Below, in pieces: positions 2,524 to 45,965 of a stretch of DNA of 64,000 nucleotides (position 1 is the first letter of the stretch; each line of letters begins with the position of its first letter). The translations under genes were made by a program, and so were the position numbers. Below the pieces are notes generated by a model that searched no databases, was not told the DNA's origin, and saw only the letters and a program-made list of their open reading frames with translations. Source of the DNA: Chlorella sorokiniana (taxonomy: Eukaryota > Chlorophyta > Trebouxiophyceae > Chlorellales > Chlorellaceae). Location of the stretch: NCBI GenBank assembly GCA_025917655.1, contig CP084613.1:992001-1056000 (forward strand), written 5' to 3'.

Positions 2524-4786
2524 ATGGTGGCAGTTTCTCTGGCTCCCCAGATGGCCTCAGTTTCTGGCCGTGTGCAGGGCCTGCGCGCCAAGCCCGCAGC
2601 AGGCCTCGTGCGGGCACCCCGCCTGCATGCAGTGAGTTCTCGAGCCCCAGCTCGCCTTATCACCTGCCAGGCTGCTCGTGACAACACCCGGACCAGGTGA
2701 GCGGCGGCTGTGGCCCCTGGGCAGCTGGCTGCGTCATCGGCGGCAGCAGCCGCGAGGTCGCAGCTGGCAGCGCCGCCAGCTTCAGCCCCGCAGCCTGCCC
2801 AGCCAGCAGCTGCTCGCTGCCAGCAACCATGTTGGCCCCGTGCAGCGCCAGAATGCGGCGCATGGGCCAAACCCATGGGCTGGGCCCTCCTGCGGTGCCG
2901 CTATGCAGCGGCGCCCGCCAACCGAACGCCGCCACGCCCACCCGCCACGCCGCCGCCGCTCTCCCCACCCGCAGCGCCGCCGCCGCAGAGCCCCTCACCC
3001 TGGAGCAGGGCGCCACCGGCGAGATCACCGTCCCCGAGTGGGCTGGCATGAGCTACGACGCCCAGTATGACGACATCTTCTCCAAGCCGCTGAACCTGCG
3101 CAAGGTCACCCCCAAGCCCGACCCCGAGGCCCAGGCCCAGGTGCCCCCCCGCCCCTCCTGACAGCCAGCTGGCGAATGCAACGCCCGTCCCAACGCAGCG
3201 GGGCCGCTCCCCGCTCCTTGCGTCGCTGCCCACATCGGCAGGGAATCTGGCGATGCCTGCCTGCTCGCTCCAACCGCCAGCGCCTGCGCCATGCTGCCCC
3301 CGTCCCTGCTGCCCTTGCACTCACGCGCCCTTCACGCCCCTGCCGTCCGCAGGTGCCCGGCGCGCGGCCGGTGCCCTTCAGCGACGTCTATGCCAAGCCC
3401 AAGTCGCGCCTGTTCTTCAACCGCGAGTTCACGGCCAAGGACAAGATGTACATGGGCTACATGGCCTTCATCCACATCGGCGCCCTGGCCGCGCCCTTCT
3501 TCTTCAGGTGCGGGCTGCGAATGCGGGCTGCGATGCGGCGGCTCGCGCACCCCAGTCTGCTTTCGACGAGGTCGACCAGCCGAGGCGGAGGGGGAACGTG
3601 GAGCTCGGGCGCTTCAAGCGCGCGCCCAGCGCTGCGCTGCGGCGCGGGTTCTGCAGGCTCTCGCCGTGCCTCTGCTGCTGCTGCCCCCGGTTGCCCACCC
3701 GCCCCGCGGCTTCCCCCGGCTTTTGCTGCAGCTGGGCCAACGTGGCGGAGTTCCTGCTCATGTACTTCATCACCGGCTGCCTGGGCATCACGCTCTCCTA
3801 CCACCGCCAGCTCACCCACCGCTCCTTCACCACCCCCAAGTGGCTGGAGCGCGTGCTGGCCTACTGCGGCGTGATGGCGGTGCAGGGCGACCCGCTGGAG
3901 TGGGTGTCATGCCACCGCTACCACCACCTGCACTGCGAGACGCCGCTGGACCCACACTCGGTGTACGAGGGCTTCTGGTGGTCCCACATGGGCTGGCTGC
4001 TGGACGACCGCGCCACCCAGTCCCGCGTCCACGACACCTCCAACGCCACCGGTGCGCGCCGCGCAGCCGCCGCGCCCGCTGCGGCAAGCTGCTGCTTTCG
4101 CTGCCGCAGAGCCCGTCATCAGTTGCCCCGCGCGCCCGCGCCCCCTTCTTAAACTTTCTCGCTGCCAATCGCTCCCCCCCCCAACCCCCCATCATTTCGC
4201 GCAGACATTTCCAGGGACCCCTTTTACGCGCACCTCAGCAAGCACTACGGCCTGCACGTGGTGGGCATGTTTGTGGCCATCTTCCTGCTGGGCGGCCTCG
4301 ACTCCCTGCTGTGGGCCGGCTGCCTGCGCTGCGCCTGGGTCTACCACATCACCTGGTTCGTCAACTCGGCGGCGCACGTGTGGGGCACCCAGGAGTATGA
4401 GACCGGTGGGTGCCCGCTGCCCTCCCTGGAGACGCGCTGCTGCTGGCTGAAGCACCCGATGGGGTCGACATGTTGAGGGCGGCCGTGGTGGCGCCTCGCA
4501 AGCCCGCAGCGCTGCCGACCGCCGCCCTGCCGCCGCCCCTTGTTTCCTGCGCGCAGGCGACCAGTCGCGCAACAACTGGTGGGTGGGCCTGCTGGCGTTT
4601 GGCGAGGGCTGGCACAACAACCACCACGCGTTTGAGTTCTCGGCGCGGCACGGCCTCAAGGACAGCCAGTGGGACATGACCTGGCAGGTCATCCGCTTCC
4701 TCAACTGGCTCGGCCTGGCCGACAACGTCAAGCTGCCCACCGAGCGCCAGCTGGAGCGCCTGCGCCTGCCCAACGCGGCGGCCTGA
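2524..4786 (+). CDS. chloroplast acyl-lipid desaturase (delta-9/FAD5 class)
   Basis: Membrane di-iron desaturase that inserts a double bond into acyl chains of plastid lipids; it belongs to the FAD5/ADS-like family (MGDG palmitate desaturase or acyl-lipid delta-9). Six exons: 2524-2696, 2975-3140, 3353-3507, 3732-4051, 4205-4405 and 4557-4786. All junctions are in phase with GT-AG ends and give 414 residues without a break. The first exon reads as a transit peptide (ATG at 2524, basic and Ala/Ser-rich). The three histidine boxes are HRQLTH (near 3805), HRYHH (near 3913) and HNNHH (near 4612). Hydrophobic segments lie before box 1 and between boxes 2 and 3, as in the family. Which lipid and which position is desaturated cannot be read from the sequence. 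A TGTAA signal at 5506 gives a 3' UTR of about 720 bases, converging on the large minus-strand gene. Confidence 0.95.
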
Positions 4787-36685: not shown

Positions 36686-38116
36686 ATGACAGCTGGAGTG
36701 GCGACAAGCGCTGAGGAGAGCACTCATCTACCGGACAGGCAGCAACCACCTCCAGCCGTCCGATGGCCGCCCACCACCGCACCTATGCCGCCTGTCATTG
36801 TGCGCCCCTACAGCCCTGACAGGGACCACGCAGACGTGGAGGTCATCTGTCGCAACGTCTGTAAGTGCAAGCCGTTGCCAAAAGCTGTTGCGCCGCAAAG
36901 GTGCTCCCACATGTTCAGCACACCGCCAGGCAGACACAACCAACCTGGTGGTTACAGACCATCAACCCTCAAACTGCCTTGACACATCCAACCCGGAATT
37001 GTGCTGCTGTTCAACGCTTCAACTGCAGACGGCGGCACTGATGATCTGCCAGCGACGATCAATACCTCAGCAGCGGAGCCTGGCACGCACATCCTGGTTG
37101 CCGCAACCAGCGCAGGCGCGCCCATGGATGCTGTGCTGTGCTGCCAACAGCGAGGCGACGTGCTGTGGCTGTGGGGCGCAAGGACGCGCGAGAGGAGCGG
37201 CGCGGCCGCGGCCTGGCACGCCTGTTGTTGGTGGGTCATGTCGGCTGCCAGTTTGCGCCAAATGTGTGCGGAGTCCATGTGGGGCCTGCCCTGGTCTGCA
37301 TGCGACGCTGCCCTGAGTTCAGCAGCCTGAACCCTCTGCTCCCGTCCCCTGCTGGGTGCAGGCTGAGGCCGAGGCGCTGGCGAGGCGCTTGCCGGGATTC
37401 GGGCGATGCTGTCTGTGACCGTTCCCGCCAACGCCGCCATGTGCCGGCTGTTTGCAGGCTGCGGATTCAGGCAACAAGCTTGCATACTCAGCTGGCCAGC
37501 CACCACAGTTGCGCAAGCTAGCAGCCAGCGCTTGGCCCTGCGACAATCAGGGGTTTCAACGTTCTTGGAAGCACAGCCTCGGGTGGCAGAAATTGTTGAC
37601 ACGCCAGCCGCCAGGCAGCTGGCGGCCTGCTGGCGGCGCTGCCGCTCCGCCGATGAGGTGATGCTTGTCCTTCTGCGGCGGCTGCGCGAGCAGCGAACTG
37701 GCAACGAGGCAGCCTTGCTGGCGTCGCAACGGCAAGGAGAGCTGTCGCCCAGGTCGCACGCCTATGCCTGGCTTCCGGCGGAGTATGCCCTTGTCCCAGC
37801 TGCTTGGCCATCGTTTGAACGGCTTGCAGAGGAGGGCCATGTGTGGATGCTGGATTCAGCGCAGCCTGCGGGCAGCAATGGCTGCGATTCGGCGGCAGTG
37901 ATGGTCTTGTGGGGCCCTGGATTCAGGTCTGTCAGGCATGCTGGAGTGGTGGCAGGCAGCGCTGAGGCATTGCATGCCGCGTTGCTGCATGCGGCTGCGG
38001 TGGATCCTCATTGCAGCAGGTTTTATGTCGACTGTTGCGGTTTCGAGCACGAGCAGCTTTGGAGCAGCACTGGCGGGGAACGATTTGACATCCTGCCTTT
38101 CTACAAGCCATTGTGA
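36686..38116 (+). CDS. GNAT-family N-acetyltransferase with extra C-terminal domain
   Basis: Acetyl-CoA-dependent N-acetyltransferase; substrate unknown. Exon 1 (ATG 36686, or 36785) holds PPVIVRPYSPDRDHADVEVI and joins at 36860 to exon 2 (37029) to give ICRNVYGGTDDLP, a good GNAT start. A following strand ends in RGDVLWLWG. The acetyl-CoA loop EERRGRGLARLLL is present but in another frame, which needs one extra base near 37195. RAMLSVTVPANAAMCRLFAGCGF, the usual last GNAT motif, again needs one base near 37391. A last intron probably ends at about 37362. The remaining 220 residues are an ordered domain (WLPAEYALVPAAWPSFERLA, ending ILPFYKPL). This two-part layout resembles NAT16-like histidine acetyltransferases, but I am not sure. 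Confidence 0.75.
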
Positions 38117-39127
38117 CGTTGTGGGCACTAACAGCTATGATGCGGAAGAGGCAGTGGGAGGGGATTTAGGCATGTGGCCTGATTGGCCCCTTCACTTGAC
38201 CGTTACCGTTACTGAGACCAGGCGCAATAAGGCGCTGGGGACACACAGTATTGCCTCCCACTAGCTCTGGTACAGCCCCAACCTTTTGCTAAAGATGCGT
38301 TTGGGGCCCCAAACAGCGGTGGCAAATGGTTGCAGCAGAAGTGCGGCGCGGCGGCGGTGGGGGTTTTGACTTAGCGAGCGGCACAAGAAGGTTTCGGGGT
38401 TGATGTGCTGGCCTGCGCTTCATAGGCCAGCTCAGCTGCTGTCGAGCGGCTGCGTACGAAGGGTAGTCAAAGCACACATGTATTGCAAATCTACGATGCT
38501 GCCACGGCCGCCGAGCGGGCACGACCGCTCCGCACGCTGCCTGCCTGCAAAACCGTCCTTGTTCTAAGGCCCTTGTTCTAAGCCTCGAGGAGCCTGAGCT
38601 CAATGCGAACCGATGCAAGCCCAAGGGTTTCTTGCTGTGCAAGGGGTTGCCGCCACGCCAATTGAATCGCTTCCGCCTAGTACAACAGCAAGTTGTGGCC
38701 TCCAAGGAGGGCGGGCACCGCAGACTACCAACAACTGCCGAGCGCATGCGCCCAGTTTGAGGAGACGCCATGCGTTGCAAGTGGTGGTTTCGCTGCTAGC
38801 TTGTCGGTGCAGGTGCGCCAAGTTCGGGCGCCGGCTACAGACATTGATGCCGACTGCTGTGCCATGGCACTGCGCAGTGCTGCCATTGCCGAGGATGACC
38901 ATGGGTCGCTGCATGATGTTGTCGCCCGCCGTCAGAAACGCAAAGATCCTTGCGTTCATGTGGCGGCCGTGCGAGAATCTCAGCACGTGAGAATGGTTGG
39001 GACAATCTGATGGAAACACCAATGCGGCTGGGTGGATTGATATAACAATAATAATGACAAAACATACTCATACATACAATAAAAGAGTAAAACAGAAAAC
39101 TCAAAAATTGAGTGCAGAACAAAAGGT
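38117..39127. other. intergenic region with element-derived fragment and AT-rich end
   Basis: No convincing exon. Contains one copy of the dispersed sequence listed at 38216 and a short direct repeat (CCTTGTTCTAAG twice, near 38558-38582). The last 90 bases before the tRNA gene are strikingly AT-rich. Confidence 0.45.
38216..38276 (+). repeat. dispersed repeat copy (degenerate)
   Basis: Sequence from GACCAGGCGC through CTGGGGACACACAG to CCCACTAGCTCTGGTACA. The same unit occurs at 42655-42732 and, inverted, twice at 39291-39496. It probably marks an end or flank of the element in the fold-back structure. Confidence 0.6.
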
Positions 39128-39226
39128 TGCGCTCACCGGGACTCGAACCCGGGCCCTATGCGAACACCCTGAGACGATCAGTTGAGCGAATGGGAAGCAT
39201 AGATGATACCCTTTCACCATGAGCGC
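39128..39226 (-). tRNA. tRNA-Gly(CCC) with a 28-base intron
   Basis: Read on the minus strand from 39226. Acceptor stem GCGCTCA pairs fully with TGAGCGC, followed by discriminator A. D arm GTGA/TCAT with GGG in the loop. Anticodon stem TATGC/GCATA; loop TTCCCA..C, so anticodon CCC. Variable region GGGC; T arm CCGGG-TTCGAGT-CCCGG, an excellent B box. Between positions 37 and 38, the normal place for nuclear tRNA introns, lie 28 extra bases (39190-39163). A TTTT run just past the 3' end (39124-39121) is a Pol III terminator, so this copy looks functional. It points outward from the inverted repeat, with its 5' end toward the LINE fragment. Confidence 0.87.
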
Positions 39227-39290
39227 ATGGAAACACCGGCGTATTATGCAGCCTTGATGAGGTCCAGTGTTGTTTTGCACCCCTTCCGCT

Positions 39291-39496
39291 GCGATGCTTA
39301 GATGTTGTACCGGAGCTAGTGGGATGCACTGCTGTGTGTCCCCAGCGCGTTACCGCGCCTGGTCTCTGTAACAGTCAAGTCAAGTCAAGTCAAGTGCGAT
39401 GCTTAGATGTTGTACCGGAGCTAGTGGGATGCACCGCTTGTGTGTCCCCGGCGAGTTACCGCGCCTGGTGTCCGTAACAGCCAAGTGATGTCAAGT
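39291..39496. repeat. tandem duplication of about 100 bases with (CAAGT)4
   Basis: Two head-to-tail copies (39291-39395 and 39396-39496) begin with GCGATGCTTAGATGTTGTAC. They are joined by four CAAGT units (39376-39395). The right arm has only one copy, so the duplication arose after, or was lost since, the arms formed. Confidence 0.85.
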
Positions 39497-39913
39497 CTGC
39501 CGACCCTTTCCAGTGCAGGCTGCAACGGCATCCAAGCCGGTCCGCCCAAACCCAGTTCCGGGCCCCGGGTCACCGCCCCACCGCTATTGTTGATTGCCGG
39601 GCGTGTGTGCGACCGCACGCCTTGGGTGCCGCTGCCAGCCCTTCCACCCTGCGCCTGCTCTTTGCTGGGCTGCACCAAGACCTGCCATACATGCGTCCAG
39701 CTGACTGCTCTCTTCGGCACCGCTCTGTTTATCCAAATCTTTGCATGCGATGCCCGCCGCCTTGAACCACCTCATCCCCCTCCCTCTCTCCTATCCCTCC
39801 ATTACCCCACAAGGGCAGCGGCCTCTCTCAATCCCAACACTTGGCCCCGCTGCTAGACAGCCTGCCTCCATTGCGGCCAGCTCCCGCCTTCCCGCCGCCA
39901 CCGTCCCGGCACG

Positions 39914-40640
39914 GTGCCAGCACACCCCCAGCCTGGCCATCAGTGGAAGGCTACCAGAGCCACGCCGTCAGCCGCCGGGATGGCCGCGGCGGCATGGCAC
40001 AACACAAAGCAATACCATCCCGGCAAAGGGTATGCCGCCAGGGCAGGAGACGGCGTGCTCTGGCTGCAGCTGGGCTGCACCCTGCCTGGCAGCAAGCGCC
40101 CTGTCATGACATGTTGTGCATGGCATGCCTGCCCGCGCCGCGCAGCTGCGGAAGCATTTGAGGTCCAGCTGCAAGAGCCAGCGCTCCTCTGCACCTGCTG
40201 GCTCTTGCAGCTGGACCTCGAGATCCGTGCGGCAAGGAGCACCGGCATCCTGCTGCTTTGCGGCTTCAACGCCAGCACAACCTCCCTGCCCGACTGGCCA
40301 ATGGATAAGGTGGAGCCTTGCAGCCGCCGCAGCGGGGCCGTGCGCAACGGCAGCAAGCGGCTGCTGCAGCTGTGCAGCAAACTCAGCCTCCACATCTGCA
40401 ACGGACGCGGCGATGGCTACAACGCTGGCGCCCCAACCAGCTTTGGCGTGAGCGACCGCAACAAGGCGGTGGTTGACTACGCGCTGGTCCCAGCGCACCT
40501 CGTGCCGCTGGCCGCCCTAAACGTGCTACACAACGCAGCGAGTGACCACGCCGCCATGTTGCTGCACAGTTCTGCCCCACAGCTTGCTGGGCAGCCGGGC
40601 AACGGCGGGCGGCACGCTGCCCTGCGCCATCGACACAGGC
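39914..40640 (+). mobile_element. LINE (non-LTR retrotransposon) endonuclease fragment, left copy
   Basis: An open frame across this arm encodes an apurinic-like endonuclease (EEP fold) of the kind found in non-LTR retrotransposons. Recognisable pieces are GILLLCGFNAST (metal/Asn strand), RLLQLCSKLSLHICNGRGDG, TSFGVSDRNKAVVDYALVPA and ASDHAAMLLHS, the final Ser-Asp-His catalytic motif. No reverse transcriptase follows: similarity between the arms stops just after the endonuclease, and the spacer shows no RT motifs. The fragment is therefore 3'-truncated, unlike the usual 5'-truncated LINE copy. It reads toward the centre of the palindrome. Confidence 0.75.
40160..40219. repeat. perfect 22-bp hairpin inside the endonuclease frame
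   Basis: GAGGTCCAGCTGCAAGAGCC+AG at 40160-40181 is perfectly repeated in inverted form at 40198-40219, with a 16-base loop. The same hairpin sits in the right arm near 41920-41978. In protein it reads as the near-palindromic VQLQEPALL...CWLLQLDLE. Confidence 0.9.
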
Positions 40641-40655
40641 GGCGGCAGCACCTTC

Positions 40656-41486
40656 TGCAATGCTTACAACGACAGGCGCTCAGAGCTCGTCGCCCTTGCT
40701 GCCTTGGCCAGCAGCGGACCCACAGCGGGTCCGCTTCCACTGTGACGGCCAGCGCGCCGCAGTTGCTGCCGCCAGCCTGGCATCCGACAACCGGCTGGAA
40801 GCGCTCAAAGCGCGGGCAGCTGCAGCCATGACCCATGAGCAGTTGGCTTGGCCCGTTGCCAGCTGATAGCGGGCCACATGGAAGCAGCTGGGCTTCCAAA
40901 CAGCAAGCAACAGCACCAGCAGCTCCTGTGGCCCCCAGCAGTAGCGAATGGTCGTACCCGGCCACATTCACGACAAGCGGCAGCTAACGCAGCTGCAGCT
41001 CGATGCCCTAGCTTCACGCAGCAAGGCAGCGACACGCGCCTTGAGGCGCGCGCAACGGCTGTTCAGCGCCCGCAAGGCGGCACGTCGTGAAGGGCAAGGC
41101 ATGAGCAGCAAGCATTCACAGATCCCGCTGCCTTCGCCAAGGCCTTCAACACCAGCAGCGGCGGCAGCCACAGCGTGTTGCAGGCCGACCAAGAGCGGCA
41201 TGTCGAAGCTGCTGGCGCTTCCATTAAAAGCCAGTGCCCAGCCCTGTCCTGACGGGAAGCTGTCGAGCAGCTTACCGCCACCACGCAGTGAGGAGGAGCG
41301 GGCGCTGCTGGCGGCAGGGGCCAGTTCAAAGGGTAGCGGAGGGCTGGGCGGCGGGGAGCGCTGAGAGCGCTGGGGGGGGTGGGAGGGGCGGAGGCGGGGG
41401 AGGGGGGCGCGCGCGGAGGGGAGGCTTCCTCTTGGAAACTTCTCGAGGGGGCAGACCCGCCGCCAGCAGGCTGCAGAAGGTCTTTG
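40656..41486. other. unique spacer of the inverted repeat
   Basis: Central segment not shared by the two arms. The left half continues in plausible retroelement style on the plus strand (ALASRSKAATRALRRAQRLF, then ARKAARREGQG, a basic helical segment like the endonuclease-RT linker of LINEs). The right half (about 41360-41450) is very G-rich. No RT domain found. Confidence 0.5.
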
Positions 41487-42925
41487 CCGCCGCCTGTGTC
41501 GATGGCGCGGGGCAGCGTGCCGCCCGCCGTTGCCCGGCTGCCCAGCAAGCTGTGGGGCAGAACTGTGCAGCAACATGGCGGCGTGGTCACTCGCTGCGTT
41601 GTGTAGCACGTTTAGGGCGGCCAGCGGCACGAGGTGCGCTGGGACCAGCGCGTAGTCAACCACCGCCTTGTTGCGGTCGCTCACGCCAAAGCTGGTTGGG
41701 GCGCCAGCGTTGTAGCCATCGCCGCGTCCGTTGCAGATGTGGAGGCTGAGTTTGCTGCACAGCTGCAGCAGCCGCTTGCTGCCGTTGCGCACGGCCCGCT
41801 GCGGCGGCTGCAAGGCTCCACCTTATCCATTGGCCAGTCGGGCAGGGAGGTTGTGCTGGCGTTGAAGCCGCAAAGCAGCAGGATGCCGGTGCTCCTTGCC
41901 GCACGGATCTCGAGGTCCAGCTGCAAGAGCCAGCAGGTGCAGAGGAGCGCTGGCTCTTGCAGCTGGACCTCAAATGCTTCCGCAGCTGCGCGGCGCGGGG
42001 CAGGCATGCCATGCACAACATGTCATGACAGGGCGCTTGCTGCCAGGCAGGGTGCAGCCCAGCTGCAGCCAGAGCACGCCGTCTCCTGCCCTGGCGGCAT
42101 ACCCTTTGCCGGGATGGTATTGCTTTGTGTTGTGCCATGCCGCCGCGGCCATCCCGGCGGCTGACGGCGTGGCTCTGGTAGCCTTCCACTGATGGCCAGG
42201 CTGGGGGTGTGCTGGCACTGTGCTGGACGGTGGCGGCGGGAAGGCGGGAGCTGGCCGCAATGGAGGCAGGCTGTCTAGCAGCGGGGCCAAGTGTTGGGAT
42301 TGAGAGAGGCCGCTGCCCTTGTGGGGTAATGGAGGGATAGGAGAGAGGGAGGGGGATGAGGTGGTTCAAGGCAGCGGGCATCGCATGCAAAGATTTGGAT
42401 AAACAGAGCGGTGCCGAAGAGAGCAGTCAGCTGGACGCATGTATGGCAGGTCTTGGTGCAGCCCAGCAAAGAGCAGGCGCAGGGTGGAAGGGCTGGCAGC
42501 GGCACCCAAGGCGTGCGGTCGCACACACGCCAGCAATCAACAATAGCGGTGGGGCAGTGACCCAGGGCCCGGAACTGGGTTTGGGCGGACCGGCTTGGAT
42601 GCCGTTGCAGCCTGCACTGGAAAGGGTCGGCAGACTTGACATCACTTGGCTGTTACAGACACCAGGCGCGGTAACTCGCTGGGGACACACAGCAGTGCAT
42701 CCCACTAGCTCCGGTACAACATCTAAGCATCGCAGCGGAAGGGGTGCAAAACAACACTGCGGACCTCATGGGCTGCATAATACGCCGGTGCCTCCATGCG
42801 CTCATGGTGAAAGGGTATCATCTATGCTTCCCATTCGTTCGACGATTCGTTGGCACCGATGTTCGACTCAACTGATGTTCGCATCGTGTCAGGGTGTTCG
42901 CATAGGGCCCGGGTTCGAGTCCCGG
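41487..42925 (-). repeat. right arm of the large inverted repeat
   Basis: Reverse complement of 39136-40655, slightly shorter because it has one copy of the 100-base unit. It carries a second endonuclease fragment on the minus strand (about 42220-41500) and ends in a damaged tRNA-Gly copy. Confidence 0.95.
41500..42220 (-). mobile_element. LINE endonuclease fragment, right copy
   Basis: Mirror copy of the left fragment with the same motifs (LLLCGFNAST, VVDYALVPA, SDHAAMLL) but with small changes that interrupt the frame between the hairpin and the C-terminal part. It reads toward the centre, so the two copies face each other. Confidence 0.72.
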
Positions 42926-42932
42926 TTGCATT
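42798..42932 (+). pseudogene. tRNA-Gly(CCC) copy with lost 3' acceptor strand
   Basis: Same as the tRNA at 39128 from the 5' acceptor strand to the T arm: GCGCTCA, GTGA/TCAT, TATGC/GCATA, loop TTCCCA..C, T arm CCGGG/CCCGG. The intron is enlarged to 65 bases (42834-42898). After CCCGG the sequence is TTGCATTGAG instead of TGAGCGCA, so the acceptor stem cannot form, and no T-run terminator follows. Probably a non-functional copy made by the inverted duplication. Confidence 0.75.
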
Positions 42933-44105
42933 GAGACCCAAAGGACGCTGCCATACGCGGGGCCGCATCCACTTGCCACGCAGAGGGGCATCAACCCCCT
43001 GACAGCATCACATGCACCAACGAGCCGCCCCAGGCGTGGTGATTGCGTGGTGGGTCCAAGGTGCCTACCCCCTCTACAATTGCGCTGCCCCCACATCGCT
43101 TGCCGCTTGTCCGCATCCCTCCACATTCACCAGGCCAGCACACCATGCTGCAGAGCTGCCAAGACTAGCGCAAGCCACCGCACGCTGGCTGCTTTATCAC
43201 TTGCAACAGCCCAGATCGCTTGGAGGTCGTGTTCATATGTTCCTCACTGGCGGCAATAGGTGCAGCCGCAGCAACAACCGAATCTTATCACGGCTCACCT
43301 CAGCTGCTAAGCGCAGCGCTGTCCTACCTCGGCTATCACTACCTTGGCTCGTTGTAATTGCTGGGCTGGGATGAGCAGCGCTGCGCCGGCCTGACTGATT
43401 TGCAACAGTGGATGTTCCACCTACAACTGCACACGGTGGCGGCGGGGTCGTGCAGGTGCCGGCGGGGTGACCTTGGCTGCGGTGCAATTTACGTTCCCGT
43501 TGAAGTCGTTGATGGCAACTTGAACCCCAGTGAGCCGCTGCAAGCTTCGGTGTGGCATGGACGAGCCAAGGCCTGCAGAGCGTCAACGACGAAAGAATAC
43601 AAAATTTTGGCGCAATAATTGGCAATGGCACCGGTCTTCAGCCCCCGCCCAGAGCATCCAAAGGGCTCCCGCGCTGCCGCCAGTTTTGCTGGTCTGGCAA
43701 GCAATCCCTGTACCTGCATCACCAAAGGTCGCATCGAGTAAAGGTACTGTTCTGCTTCCCTACGCAAAAATCTTGCAGCCGATGGAAGGCAAACACTCGA
43801 ACGCATGCTGAAAGTTCCTGGCTGAGCCGCCCAGGTGCTGCCAATCGACCGGTGTGCGGCGTGCCTGGCGTCCTGCGTGGTGGCGAAAATGCCCCCTGCT
43901 TCTATAAGGTAGGGCCTGGTCAAGCATGGCCACCTTTTTGCAGAGCATCTCATCACGTCACAGCGCTTGCTTGCCTTCTGCATTACAGGTCGGCCACGAG
44001 CGCATGAGCGCTGCCGTCATATGAACTTCCCAATTGGGAAGTTTGCCAGTTGCAACTTGCAAGCGCATGGAGATGAAACACAGATCTGGAACAGAAAAAT
44101 CATGT
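42926..44105. other. intergenic region right of the inverted repeat
   Basis: Mixed composition, lower in GC than the genes. One ATG frame of 120 codons (43012-43374) lacks any family signature or codon bias, and I do not call it. The last 120 bases are the 3' UTR of the acidic-tail gene. Confidence 0.4.
43983..43987 (-). terminator. TGTAA poly(A) signal (minus strand) of the acidic-tail gene
   Basis: TTACA on the plus strand, 119 bases beyond the minus-strand stop at 44106. Confidence 0.55.
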
Positions 44106-45965
44106 CTAGTACTGCTCGCCATCATCGCCATCGTCCTCCTCTTCCTGCTCCTCTCCATCCTCCTCCTCCTCGTAATCAGGCTCCTCTCCATCCTCCTCCT
44201 CCTCCTCATAATCAGCCTCTCCCCCCGCCCTCCTCCTCCTCCTCATAATCAGCCTCCTCCCCATCCTCCTCCTCCTCCTCCCTCACAATCCTCCTCATCA
44301 GCCTCCTCCCCGCCCTCCTCATCATCATCATCATAATCAGCCTCCTCCCCATCCTCCTCCTCCTCCTCAGCCTCCTCCCCATCCTCCTCCTCGCCCCCGG
44401 TCTCCTCCTCAATCTCACCGTTAATGTCGCTGTTCTCCCCATCGATGTCATCCACGCCTGGCTCCTCGTTATCATCAAGCTCCTCCCCAGTTCCGCCGCC
44501 GTCGTCCGATCCGCAACAACCGCCGCAATCGTCATCGGTGTCGTCGCCATTATCTGTCTTTTCAGCCTCCTTCAGCTGCTCCTCCGTCTCTGCTAGCTTC
44601 TCTCGCGTTTCTGCCAGCTCATCCTGTGTCTCCCCCAAAGAATCCAACGCCTTGCCCCATCCACCTAATGCCTTGCCCCATCCGTCCAATGCCTTGTCCT
44701 CGCCTTCCTGCGCATCCTCCAGCGCCCTATCGGCCTCCTTGTCTGCCTTGTCTTCAGCCTCAGACGGCTTGTGTTCCTCCTTCTCCTCCTTTTCCTCCTT
44801 GTCTGTCCCCTCCTTCTCCTCCTTGTCTGTCCCCTCCTTCTCCTCCTTTGGTTCCTTGTCGCGAGCTGTTGGACTTTCCTTCTCCAAGCTGCTCTTGCCA
44901 CCAGACTTGCTTGCAACAGCTTTTTCTTTCCTGCGAGAAGTGAAGGATGTGGAAAGACATCTGGTATGCCCAAAAAGCACAACAAAGTAAACACCGAGGC
45001 CACGCCAACCACTATGCAACCCAACAAATCAACGCCCGCCTCACCCTTCTGCAACCTTGCTAGGCGCCTTGCTGGGCGCCTTGTTGGGCGGAGCCTTGCC
45101 AGTCGGCTTGCTCGGTGCCTTGCTCGGTGCCTTGCTGAGCGCCGCCTTGCCAGTTGCAACCGCCTTGCTGAGCGCCTCCTTGCCAGTTGCAACCGCCTTG
45201 CTGAGCGCCGCCTTGCTAGGCGCAGGTTTGTCAGCCGGCTTGCTGGGTGCCGCTTTGCTGGGCGCTGGCTTGTTGGGCACAGCCTTACTGGGCGCCGCCT
45301 TGCCAGCGGGCTTGCCAGGCGCCTTGTCGAAGCTGGCGCCAAAGAGGGGCTGCCCTCGCACCCGGCATTGCAGCAGCAACCGCCGCCGCCGCCGCCGCCG
45401 CTGGGGCTGCCGCCGCACCTGCTGCCACGGCTGTAGTGTGCACAGTCACCGGGGCAGCGGTGGACATGTGGATGACTGGGGTGGAGGGTGCTGCCGCCGC
45501 ATACACGGCCTGCTGCACGGGCCGCTGGCCGTAGGCAGCTATTGGCGCGCTGTAGGCTGGCGCCAAGGCTGGCTGCCCGCGCGCCGGAGCAGGCATTGAA
45601 GCAACTGGGTAGCCAGGTGGTGGGGGCCGTAGATGAAGGGCGCGCTGGCGGCCTGTCCCATCATGGGCACGCGGGTCCCGCCTGGCTGCCAGCCCATGCC
45701 AGGCCCTCCCATGCCCATCATGGGGGCAGTGTGCACCACGTTGGGGGCAGGGCTGGCGAGACGCCATACATGCCGCCAAGCATGCCGCCCGGCATGGCGC
45801 CCGGCATCAGCGCTGCGCCGCTCTGGCCCCAGTTGAGGCTGTGCTGGTGGGCCATCATGGCGGCGGCCCGCTGCTGCTGCCCCTGCTGGGCCATCATGGC
45901 GGCCACCTGCTGCTGCTGGGCCATCATGGCAGCCTGGTGCTGGTGCTGGGCCAGCATGGCAGCCA

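Follow-up and report, generated by a model that had tools for sequence, protein, structure and literature searches.

The window, all 64,000 bases of the stretch analysed, looks like a piece of an algal nuclear chromosome and carries a fold-back in which one arm is an inverted copy of the other. This structure probably arose by a single inverted duplication at the DNA level, through fold-back or template switching, and then decayed. Each arm combines a tRNA-Gly(CCC) sequence, a short repeat and a worn LINE-like fragment that probably derives from a retrotransposon. The whole resembles a commonplace error of DNA copying and is no proof of a retrotransposon that seeks out tRNA genes. It is a well-preserved inverted duplication, small and interstitial, one of whose breakpoints falls within a tRNA gene; in yeast, replication forks stall at tRNA genes.

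Architecture of the fold-back

Arms of 1,525 bases (left) and 1,455 bases (right) lie inverted around a spacer of 812 bases (Table 1), bearing out the sequence-only reading, which had described reverse-complement arms of about 1.4-1.5 kb and a spacer of about 830 bases. Their alignment falls into a main block and an outer block (indels are counted in the identity of the latter), which have the right arm's single repeat unit in common. Two blocks without gaps, 313 and 307 bases long, are 100% complementary when rounded, with one substitution each (40623 and 39758). The complementarity is far beyond chance.

Table 1. Features of the fold-back and its surroundings (window positions)
Feature	Position	Strand	Remarks
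Solo copy of repeat-unit core, outside the fold-back	38190-38274	-	85% identity
Intact intron-containing tRNA-Gly(CCC) gene, outer end of left arm	39128-39226	-	Rfam, ARAGORN, acceptor pairing
Left arm	39135-40659	+	tRNA-Gly short of its final bases; a pair of 105-bp units; inward-reading LINE-like stretch
Tandem units U1 and U2 (105-bp repeat)	39290-39497	+	91% identical to each other
Internal hairpin, 23-bp perfect stem, 14-base loop	40160-40219	.	In LINE-like ORF; copy at 41912-41971
Probable C-terminal half of LINE (EEP-type) endonuclease	40211-40600	+	Motif pattern only
Spacer, 812 bases	40660-41471	.	G-rich stretch at end; only weak, unrelated Pfam rows
Right arm, inverted copy	41472-42926	-	98.6% over 1,267 columns, 83% over outer 296
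Single 105-bp-type unit of right arm	42633-42734	-	U1/U2 mosaic (alignment)
tRNA-Gly pseudogene, right arm	42798-42930	+	3' acceptor strand gone, longer intron

Could the palindrome have been made in assembly, by joining one locus head to head with a second copy or haplotype of itself? Four single-base indels separate the arms (left-arm positions 39597, 39905, 40132 and 40334; the junction scar is left out of the count), and all of them lie in or beside runs of two to four C or G, where sequencing errors tend to fall. However, an entire 106-bp unit separates the arms too, as do blocks of 8 and 29 bp in the tRNA intron and the acceptor strand, which is gone on the right. The outer flanks, compared by blastn over 37500-43700 (E <= 1e-3), are alike only in the repeat unit, which occurs once more on the left. 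Since the arms differ in blocks and the flanks differ, a single locus read twice is improbable, and we regard an assembly artefact as unlikely.

The sequence-only reading had placed a short repeat unit in each arm. It is present, but twice on the left and once on the right, with a further solo copy next to which nothing else of the arm is found. Copies in both orientations thus lie less than 1.1 kb apart, which would allow a two-step unequal exchange between inverted dispersed units (for example the solo copy and U1) that moved an arm without copying it. The borders of the arms, however, fall in the tRNA and the LINE-like stretch and none falls in a unit, and an origin by exchange is highly improbable. 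The unit was also considered as a structured RNA: in the consensus fold of its four copies, 0 of 26 pairs are changed on both sides; U1 alone folds with a z of -2.18, and 4 of 200 shuffles do equally well.

The tRNA sequences at the outer ends, which the sequence-only reading took as a tRNA-Gly pointing outward on each arm, are unequal: the left one stands as a gene and the right one is a pseudogene, cut right after the T stem. The left copy reaches 47.8 bits with the Rfam tRNA model (gathering threshold 29) over model positions 1-71 of 71, pairs 7/7 acceptor positions, has an intron of 28 nt right after the anticodon loop, and is followed by a TTTT run starting 4 bases past the acceptor stem. 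It is the sole gene in three of four ARAGORN listings that allow introns; the fourth, the permissive -ps listing, gives 11 candidates, the majority of them interrupted by introns of 148-1,182 bases, and the extra ones are taken as noise. Unspliced, its minimum-energy fold is not a cloverleaf (z -1.33). The right copy scores 22.4 bits, below the gathering threshold of 29, with 3/7 acceptor pairs and an intron of about 65 nt. Nuclear tRNA introns in general lie at 37/38, as the cited excerpt states (PMC3978253). The left copy resembles a canonical intron-bearing nuclear tRNA-Gly(CCC), with a full-length model match, an intron after the anticodon loop and nothing unusual about it, whereas the right copy departs from that type as a pseudogene.

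The LINE-like stretch and the spacer

L1-type endonucleases carry the ordered motifs GDFN-like, (I/V)D(Y/H/F) and SDH. A GFN...VDY...SDH succession with fitting spacing occurs in one place in the six frames of the window; the pattern, written after the sequence had been read, was found in 0/300 simulated windows and in 0/200,000 shuffles of the 130-aa piece. At the first motif the sequence has CGFN instead of GDFN, and the frame is intact only in the left arm, the right arm having a 1-bp deletion between the motifs. Among six ORFs from arms and spacer, 3/6 had no match in Pfam at E <= 1, and the other 3/6 matched unrelated families weakly, with E of 0.12 to 0.72, all under the cut-offs; two pieces searched separately had no Pfam match of any kind at E <= 10. 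A PDB search returned three rows, pancreatic ribonuclease constructs at E of about 0.6, which are chance matches. Structure prediction for 40031-40600 had a mean pLDDT of 35.4, too poor for a fold search.

The three motifs, the one basis of the assignment, weakly suggest an endonuclease, which neither the Pfam nor the PDB search supports. Of the inward endonuclease domain claimed for both arms, what is seen is the ordered motifs in the left arm. That neither arm has a reverse transcriptase agrees with the Pfam search, in which the six ORFs showed no match to one. The claim that the fragment kept its 5' part, against the normal course of LINE decay, holds in one half only: the fragment shows no 3' part, but a 5' end is not recognised either, nor is a 3' end or 3' tail.

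By tblastn, no relatives of the endonuclease stretch or the spacer ORF were confirmed in viral contigs (11 and 24 candidate stretches) or in prokaryotic contigs (40 candidate stretches). In the viral contigs a DNA pattern for the repeat unit had 0 matches, as had one for the tRNA 5' half; a looser tRNA pattern had 0 in the prokaryotic contigs. These blanks say little, because the collections are viral and prokaryotic.

Judged by eye, the LINE-like stretch of the left arm probably continues, degraded, through the spacer, and a frame at 39857-40831 runs open across the border between arm and spacer. Near the spacer's right end, G+C reaches 75% (41340-41485), and G-quadruplex-type motifs lie at 41331-41356 and 41372-41407, a common type with 42 examples in the window. 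The hairpin within the LINE-like ORF was considered as a miRNA; all family matches fell under the Rfam gathering thresholds and are put down to hairpin geometry.

Origin of the inverted copy

One arm reads as the original and the other as its inverted copy, between unrelated outer flanks. The copy took in the tRNA with its intron, the repeat unit and the LINE-like stretch as one piece, with 98.6% identity in the main block, and this sustains the earlier proposal of an inverted duplication at the DNA level. The left arm is taken as the original because its tRNA is complete (7/7 acceptor pairs, TTTT run), because the unit on the right combines parts of U1 and U2 from the left, and because the reading frame runs open into the spacer on the left and is broken in the right arm. 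The indels in the tRNA intron do not tell which arm is ancestral. Two other readings of the copied material were set aside: a retrocopy of an antisense transcript (the intron is retained, there is no A tail, and the copy ends inside the tRNA) and a SINE (the body of the repeat is found 5' of the tRNA, and on the left the tRNA gene is complete).

The sequence itself displays the inverted copy, the pattern of identity and the difference between the arms; fold-back priming, the direction of copying and gene conversion are inferred. The starting locus would have been the left arm plus the spacer, with a tRNA-Gly(CCC) gene followed by two 105-bp units and then by a decayed LINE-like fragment that continues rightwards through the spacer. 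A strand broken or stalled near 41472, right after the G-rich stretch, may have folded back on the left arm and paired through a 10-base inverted match, TGCAGAAGGT (41472-41481) with ACCTTCTGCA (40650-40659). About 1.45 kb of the left arm would then have been copied outwards until synthesis halted inside the tRNA gene, right after the T stem, and the copied strand would have rejoined the original right flank at 42927. Later, the right copy may have lost one repeat unit through recombination between units. The near-identity of the inner 1 kb or so could reflect youth or arm-to-arm conversion.

The smaller 23-bp hairpin within each arm speaks for this scheme, and so do the two G-quadruplex-type motifs near 41472, common as that type is in the window. 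Both junctions bear on it as well. The 10-base inner match is followed by a difference of 2-3 bases, and it can equally be the tail of ordinary arm homology followed by a small mutation, in which case it would be no priming site. At the outer junction, the possible microhomology is just 3 bases (GGT). Unrelated flanks on both sides need a second switch; a simple fold-back inversion gives none.

Long inverted arms around a spacer are also what a fold-back transposon would present, one that had captured the tRNA gene and the LINE sequence and moved as a unit, and a 6-base direct match, GGTTGC, can be seen by eye at the outer ends (39125-39130 and 42924-42929). Only at its right-hand occurrence, however, does that match overlap an arm, and the termini are not equivalent: on the left the end falls within a perfect tRNA acceptor stem, which makes this terminus a host gene as well. 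With no transposase match in the six ORFs and no second copy of the fold-back in the window, such a transposon is very unlikely, and a single inverted duplication is the preferred reading.

Comparison with known systems

The LINE-like fragment lies upstream of the tRNA gene and in the opposite strand sense, a single case (n=1) conditional on its LINE identity. According to the excerpts cited, TRE5 elements of Dictyostelium insert upstream of tRNA genes in opposite orientation, at about 44-54 bp according to the text and 40-54 bp according to the table (PMC5911963), and dictyostelids are the only group for which non-LTR elements targeting tRNA genes are described (PMC5006619, PMC5911963). Could an element of this kind, new in green algae, have inserted before the locus was duplicated? 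The orientation agrees, and the repeat unit starts 63 bp from the tRNA 5' end, against a range of 39-64 bp given in the excerpt for NLTR-B (PMC5911963). However, 63 bp is no insertion distance, because the unit is also found without the rest of the arm and, occurring alone at 38190-38274, is no marker of a LINE end. The tRNA and the first endonuclease motif are 1,036 bp apart, and the fragment has no defined end from which a distance could be measured. The six ORFs show no match to a reverse transcriptase, and a 3' tail and 5' end are unrecognised. Both arms descend from one duplication, so there is one independent association of tRNA and LINE, not two. In the excerpts cited, TRE5 is a population of insertions; here a single association stands, with no element end and no reverse transcriptase (PMC5911963, PMC5006619). 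Among the matches listed in the open-access literature (titles and openings of abstracts), none was a green-algal tRNA-targeting LINE. There is little chance that such an element inserted here, and just as little that an independently evolved, TRE5-oriented algal LINE family left one copy inside a later duplication broken in the tRNA gene; if true, it would be a further origin of tRNA targeting among non-LTR elements.

Green algae do have L1-type LINEs, including Zepp and Zepp-like elements (PMC8226300), and the motifs seen here would fit an EEP-type LINE endonuclease. Zepp arrays consist mostly of 3' ends in that excerpt, whereas the fragment here shows no 3' part (PMC8226300).

The inverted duplication itself finds its closest likeness in yeast fold-back inversions, whose hairpin loops reach up to thousands of nucleotides in the excerpt cited (PMC7467729). 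The large-loop cases there share the inverted copy beside its original and the size of the loop, and perhaps the short inverted match at the inner junction, if that is more than arm homology here (PMC7467729). As that excerpt describes them, however, those events were obtained in a genetic system and are gross rearrangements of chromosomes, whereas the copy in this window lies interstitially and measures about 1.45 kb (PMC7467729).

A partly decayed inverted duplication with a breakpoint in a tRNA

The fold-back is real: an interstitial inverted duplication, decayed in part, that has a breakpoint in a tRNA. Such a rearrangement is ordinary in kind, and its details are well preserved here. The inverted arms around a spacer that the sequence-only reading described are borne out, with 812 bases between them. 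In blastn the arms align in two blocks, the first of 1,267 columns with 98.6% identity and the second of 296 columns with 83%, gaps included in both and the single right-hand repeat unit counted in both. No other repeats of this scale were seen within the 64,000-base window.

Differences between the arms, hand-counted from their alignment with the small inner-junction gaps (40647-40649) excluded, are denser on the outside. The outer part (left 39135-39600, about 360 aligned bases) holds 14 difference events, 8 substitutions and 6 indels, and the inner part (left 39601-40646, about 1,046 bases) holds 7, of which 4 are substitutions and 3 indels (Fisher p = 8e-5; p = 0.003 when only substitutions are counted; rounded lengths, and the 39600 cut chosen post hoc). 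The greater likeness of the inner part may reflect either inter-arm gene conversion or a faster change of the tRNA and tandem units after loss of function.

A tRNA-Gly had been read at the end of each arm, which holds in full on the left only: the arms are unequal, with a complete gene there and a pseudogene on the right. The left tRNA-Gly(CCC) pairs 7/7 in the acceptor stem, has a 28-nt intron and is followed by a TTTT run. It is the only gene in three ARAGORN listings permitting introns, while a fourth, permissive listing (-ps) returned 11 candidates, mostly with very long introns; neither ARAGORN at default settings nor a fast whole-window Rfam scan picked it up. Unspliced, its minimum-energy fold is not a cloverleaf (z -1.33). 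The right copy scores 22.4 bits in Rfam (gathering 29) and pairs 3/7, and its intron of about 65 nt is longer than the left one by 29 and 8 bases (42838-42884), with short repeats of TTCG/GTTCG type. Its homology ends past the T stem, at 42926, and it is therefore a pseudogene.

Features of the fold-back and its surroundings
Feature	Position	Strand	Remarks
Left arm	39135-40659		inverse copy of right arm
Right arm	41472-42926		inverse copy of left arm
tRNA-Gly(CCC) gene, full, end of left arm	39128-39226	-	Rfam 47.8 bits, gathering 29
U1 + U2, left-arm repeat units	39290-39497	+	
Right-arm repeat unit	42633-42734	-	
Solo unit core, outside fold-back	38190-38274	-	inverted, 85% identity
Internal hairpin	40160-40219, duplicate at 41912-41971		perfect 23-bp stem, 14-base loop
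Fatty-acid desaturase gene, part	3094-4149	+	Pfam PF00487, E 1.3e-8

The window is 66% G+C with 0 N. Interrupted frames and a tRNA with an intron suggest the nuclear genome of a green alga, and the desaturase is the sole Pfam family above curated cut-off among 10 window ORFs scanned. TCC-rich low-complexity arrays with periods of 12-51 bp (44098-44438 and 45055-45326) translate in the ORF list as acidic or Leu/Ala-rich repeats.

The repeat unit and the LINE-like stretch

The 105-bp unit occurs twice in the left arm (91% identity between copies) and once in the right. In the alignment, the first half of the right unit matches U1 and the second half U2, one extra base fitting U1 or a new mutation; this pattern most simply points to an ancestor with two units, one of which the right arm would have lost. 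Because its core also stands solo, with no other arm part beside it, the unit is tied neither to the tRNA nor to the LINE-like stretch. Its predicted folded core has z -2.18 for U1, and among four copies compared 0 of 26 pairs are altered on both sides. The unit is a dispersed repeat of 65-105 bp, with and without tRNA.

The LINE endonuclease proposed for the arms is suggested by three motifs and finds no support in Pfam or PDB. GFN, VDY and SDH occur in order once in the window's six frames, inside a frame open for 324 codons from left arm into spacer (39857-40831), at spacings like those of L1-type endonucleases. Neither 300 Markov-simulated windows nor 200,000 shuffled versions of the 130-aa piece contained this pattern, which was written post hoc with the sequence already seen. 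Pfam had no match for the ORF or its pieces; of five other arm/spacer ORFs, three gave weak rows to unrelated families (E 0.12-0.72) and two none. A PDB search of the stretch returned three rows only, all chance, and its single-sequence AlphaFold2 model was unusable (pLDDT 35.4). The stretch is probably what remains of a LINE endonuclease's C-terminal half, and the spacer part, judged by eye, is presumably linker sequence after it. As had been claimed, reverse transcriptase left no sign, here among six arm/spacer ORFs scanned; nor is a 5' end recognisable, which makes this an internal fragment and not the 5'-retained element first described. The 23-bp hairpin inside the endonuclease-like ORF resembles a short inverted duplication lying in the coding frame, and may be a smaller-scale lesion of the same type as the fold-back.

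Probable origin of the right arm and comparison with known systems

The inner borders are ACCTTCTGCA at 40650-40659 and its inverse TGCAGAAGGT at 41472-41481; past this match one arm has GC and the other CTT, after which the homology picks up again. At the outer border, CCCGGT leads into the acceptor strand on the left side and into TGCATTG on the right. A single event of fold-back copying is the most likely origin of the right arm. A strand ending in TGCAGAAGGT would have folded back over a loop of ~800 bases, copied the left arm up to the T stem of the tRNA and rejoined the old right flank, GGT possibly being the 3-base match. For yeast fold-back inversions, loops reaching thousands of nucleotides are reported (PMC7467729). 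Synthesis might have stalled at G-rich motifs (41331-41407), a weak argument since 42 such motifs lie across the window.

Could an algal LINE that targets tRNA genes account for the association, as the sequence-only reading proposed? We consider this very improbable. Orientation is the sole positive point: the LINE-like stretch lies to the tRNA as does TRE5, a non-LTR element of Dictyostelium, as described in PMC5911963. According to that paper TRE5 insertions, oriented opposite to the tRNA, lie ~44-54 bp upstream of it; here the first endonuclease motif is 1,036 bp from the tRNA. NLTR-B is listed in the same paper at 39-64 bp and the repeat unit begins 63 bp from the tRNA, but that is a unit-to-tRNA spacing, and the unit, which also occurs alone, need not belong to the LINE. 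PMC5006619 describes TRE targeting as unique to dictyostelids. Both arms count as one observation, and a lone association weighs little unless set against a genome-wide background.
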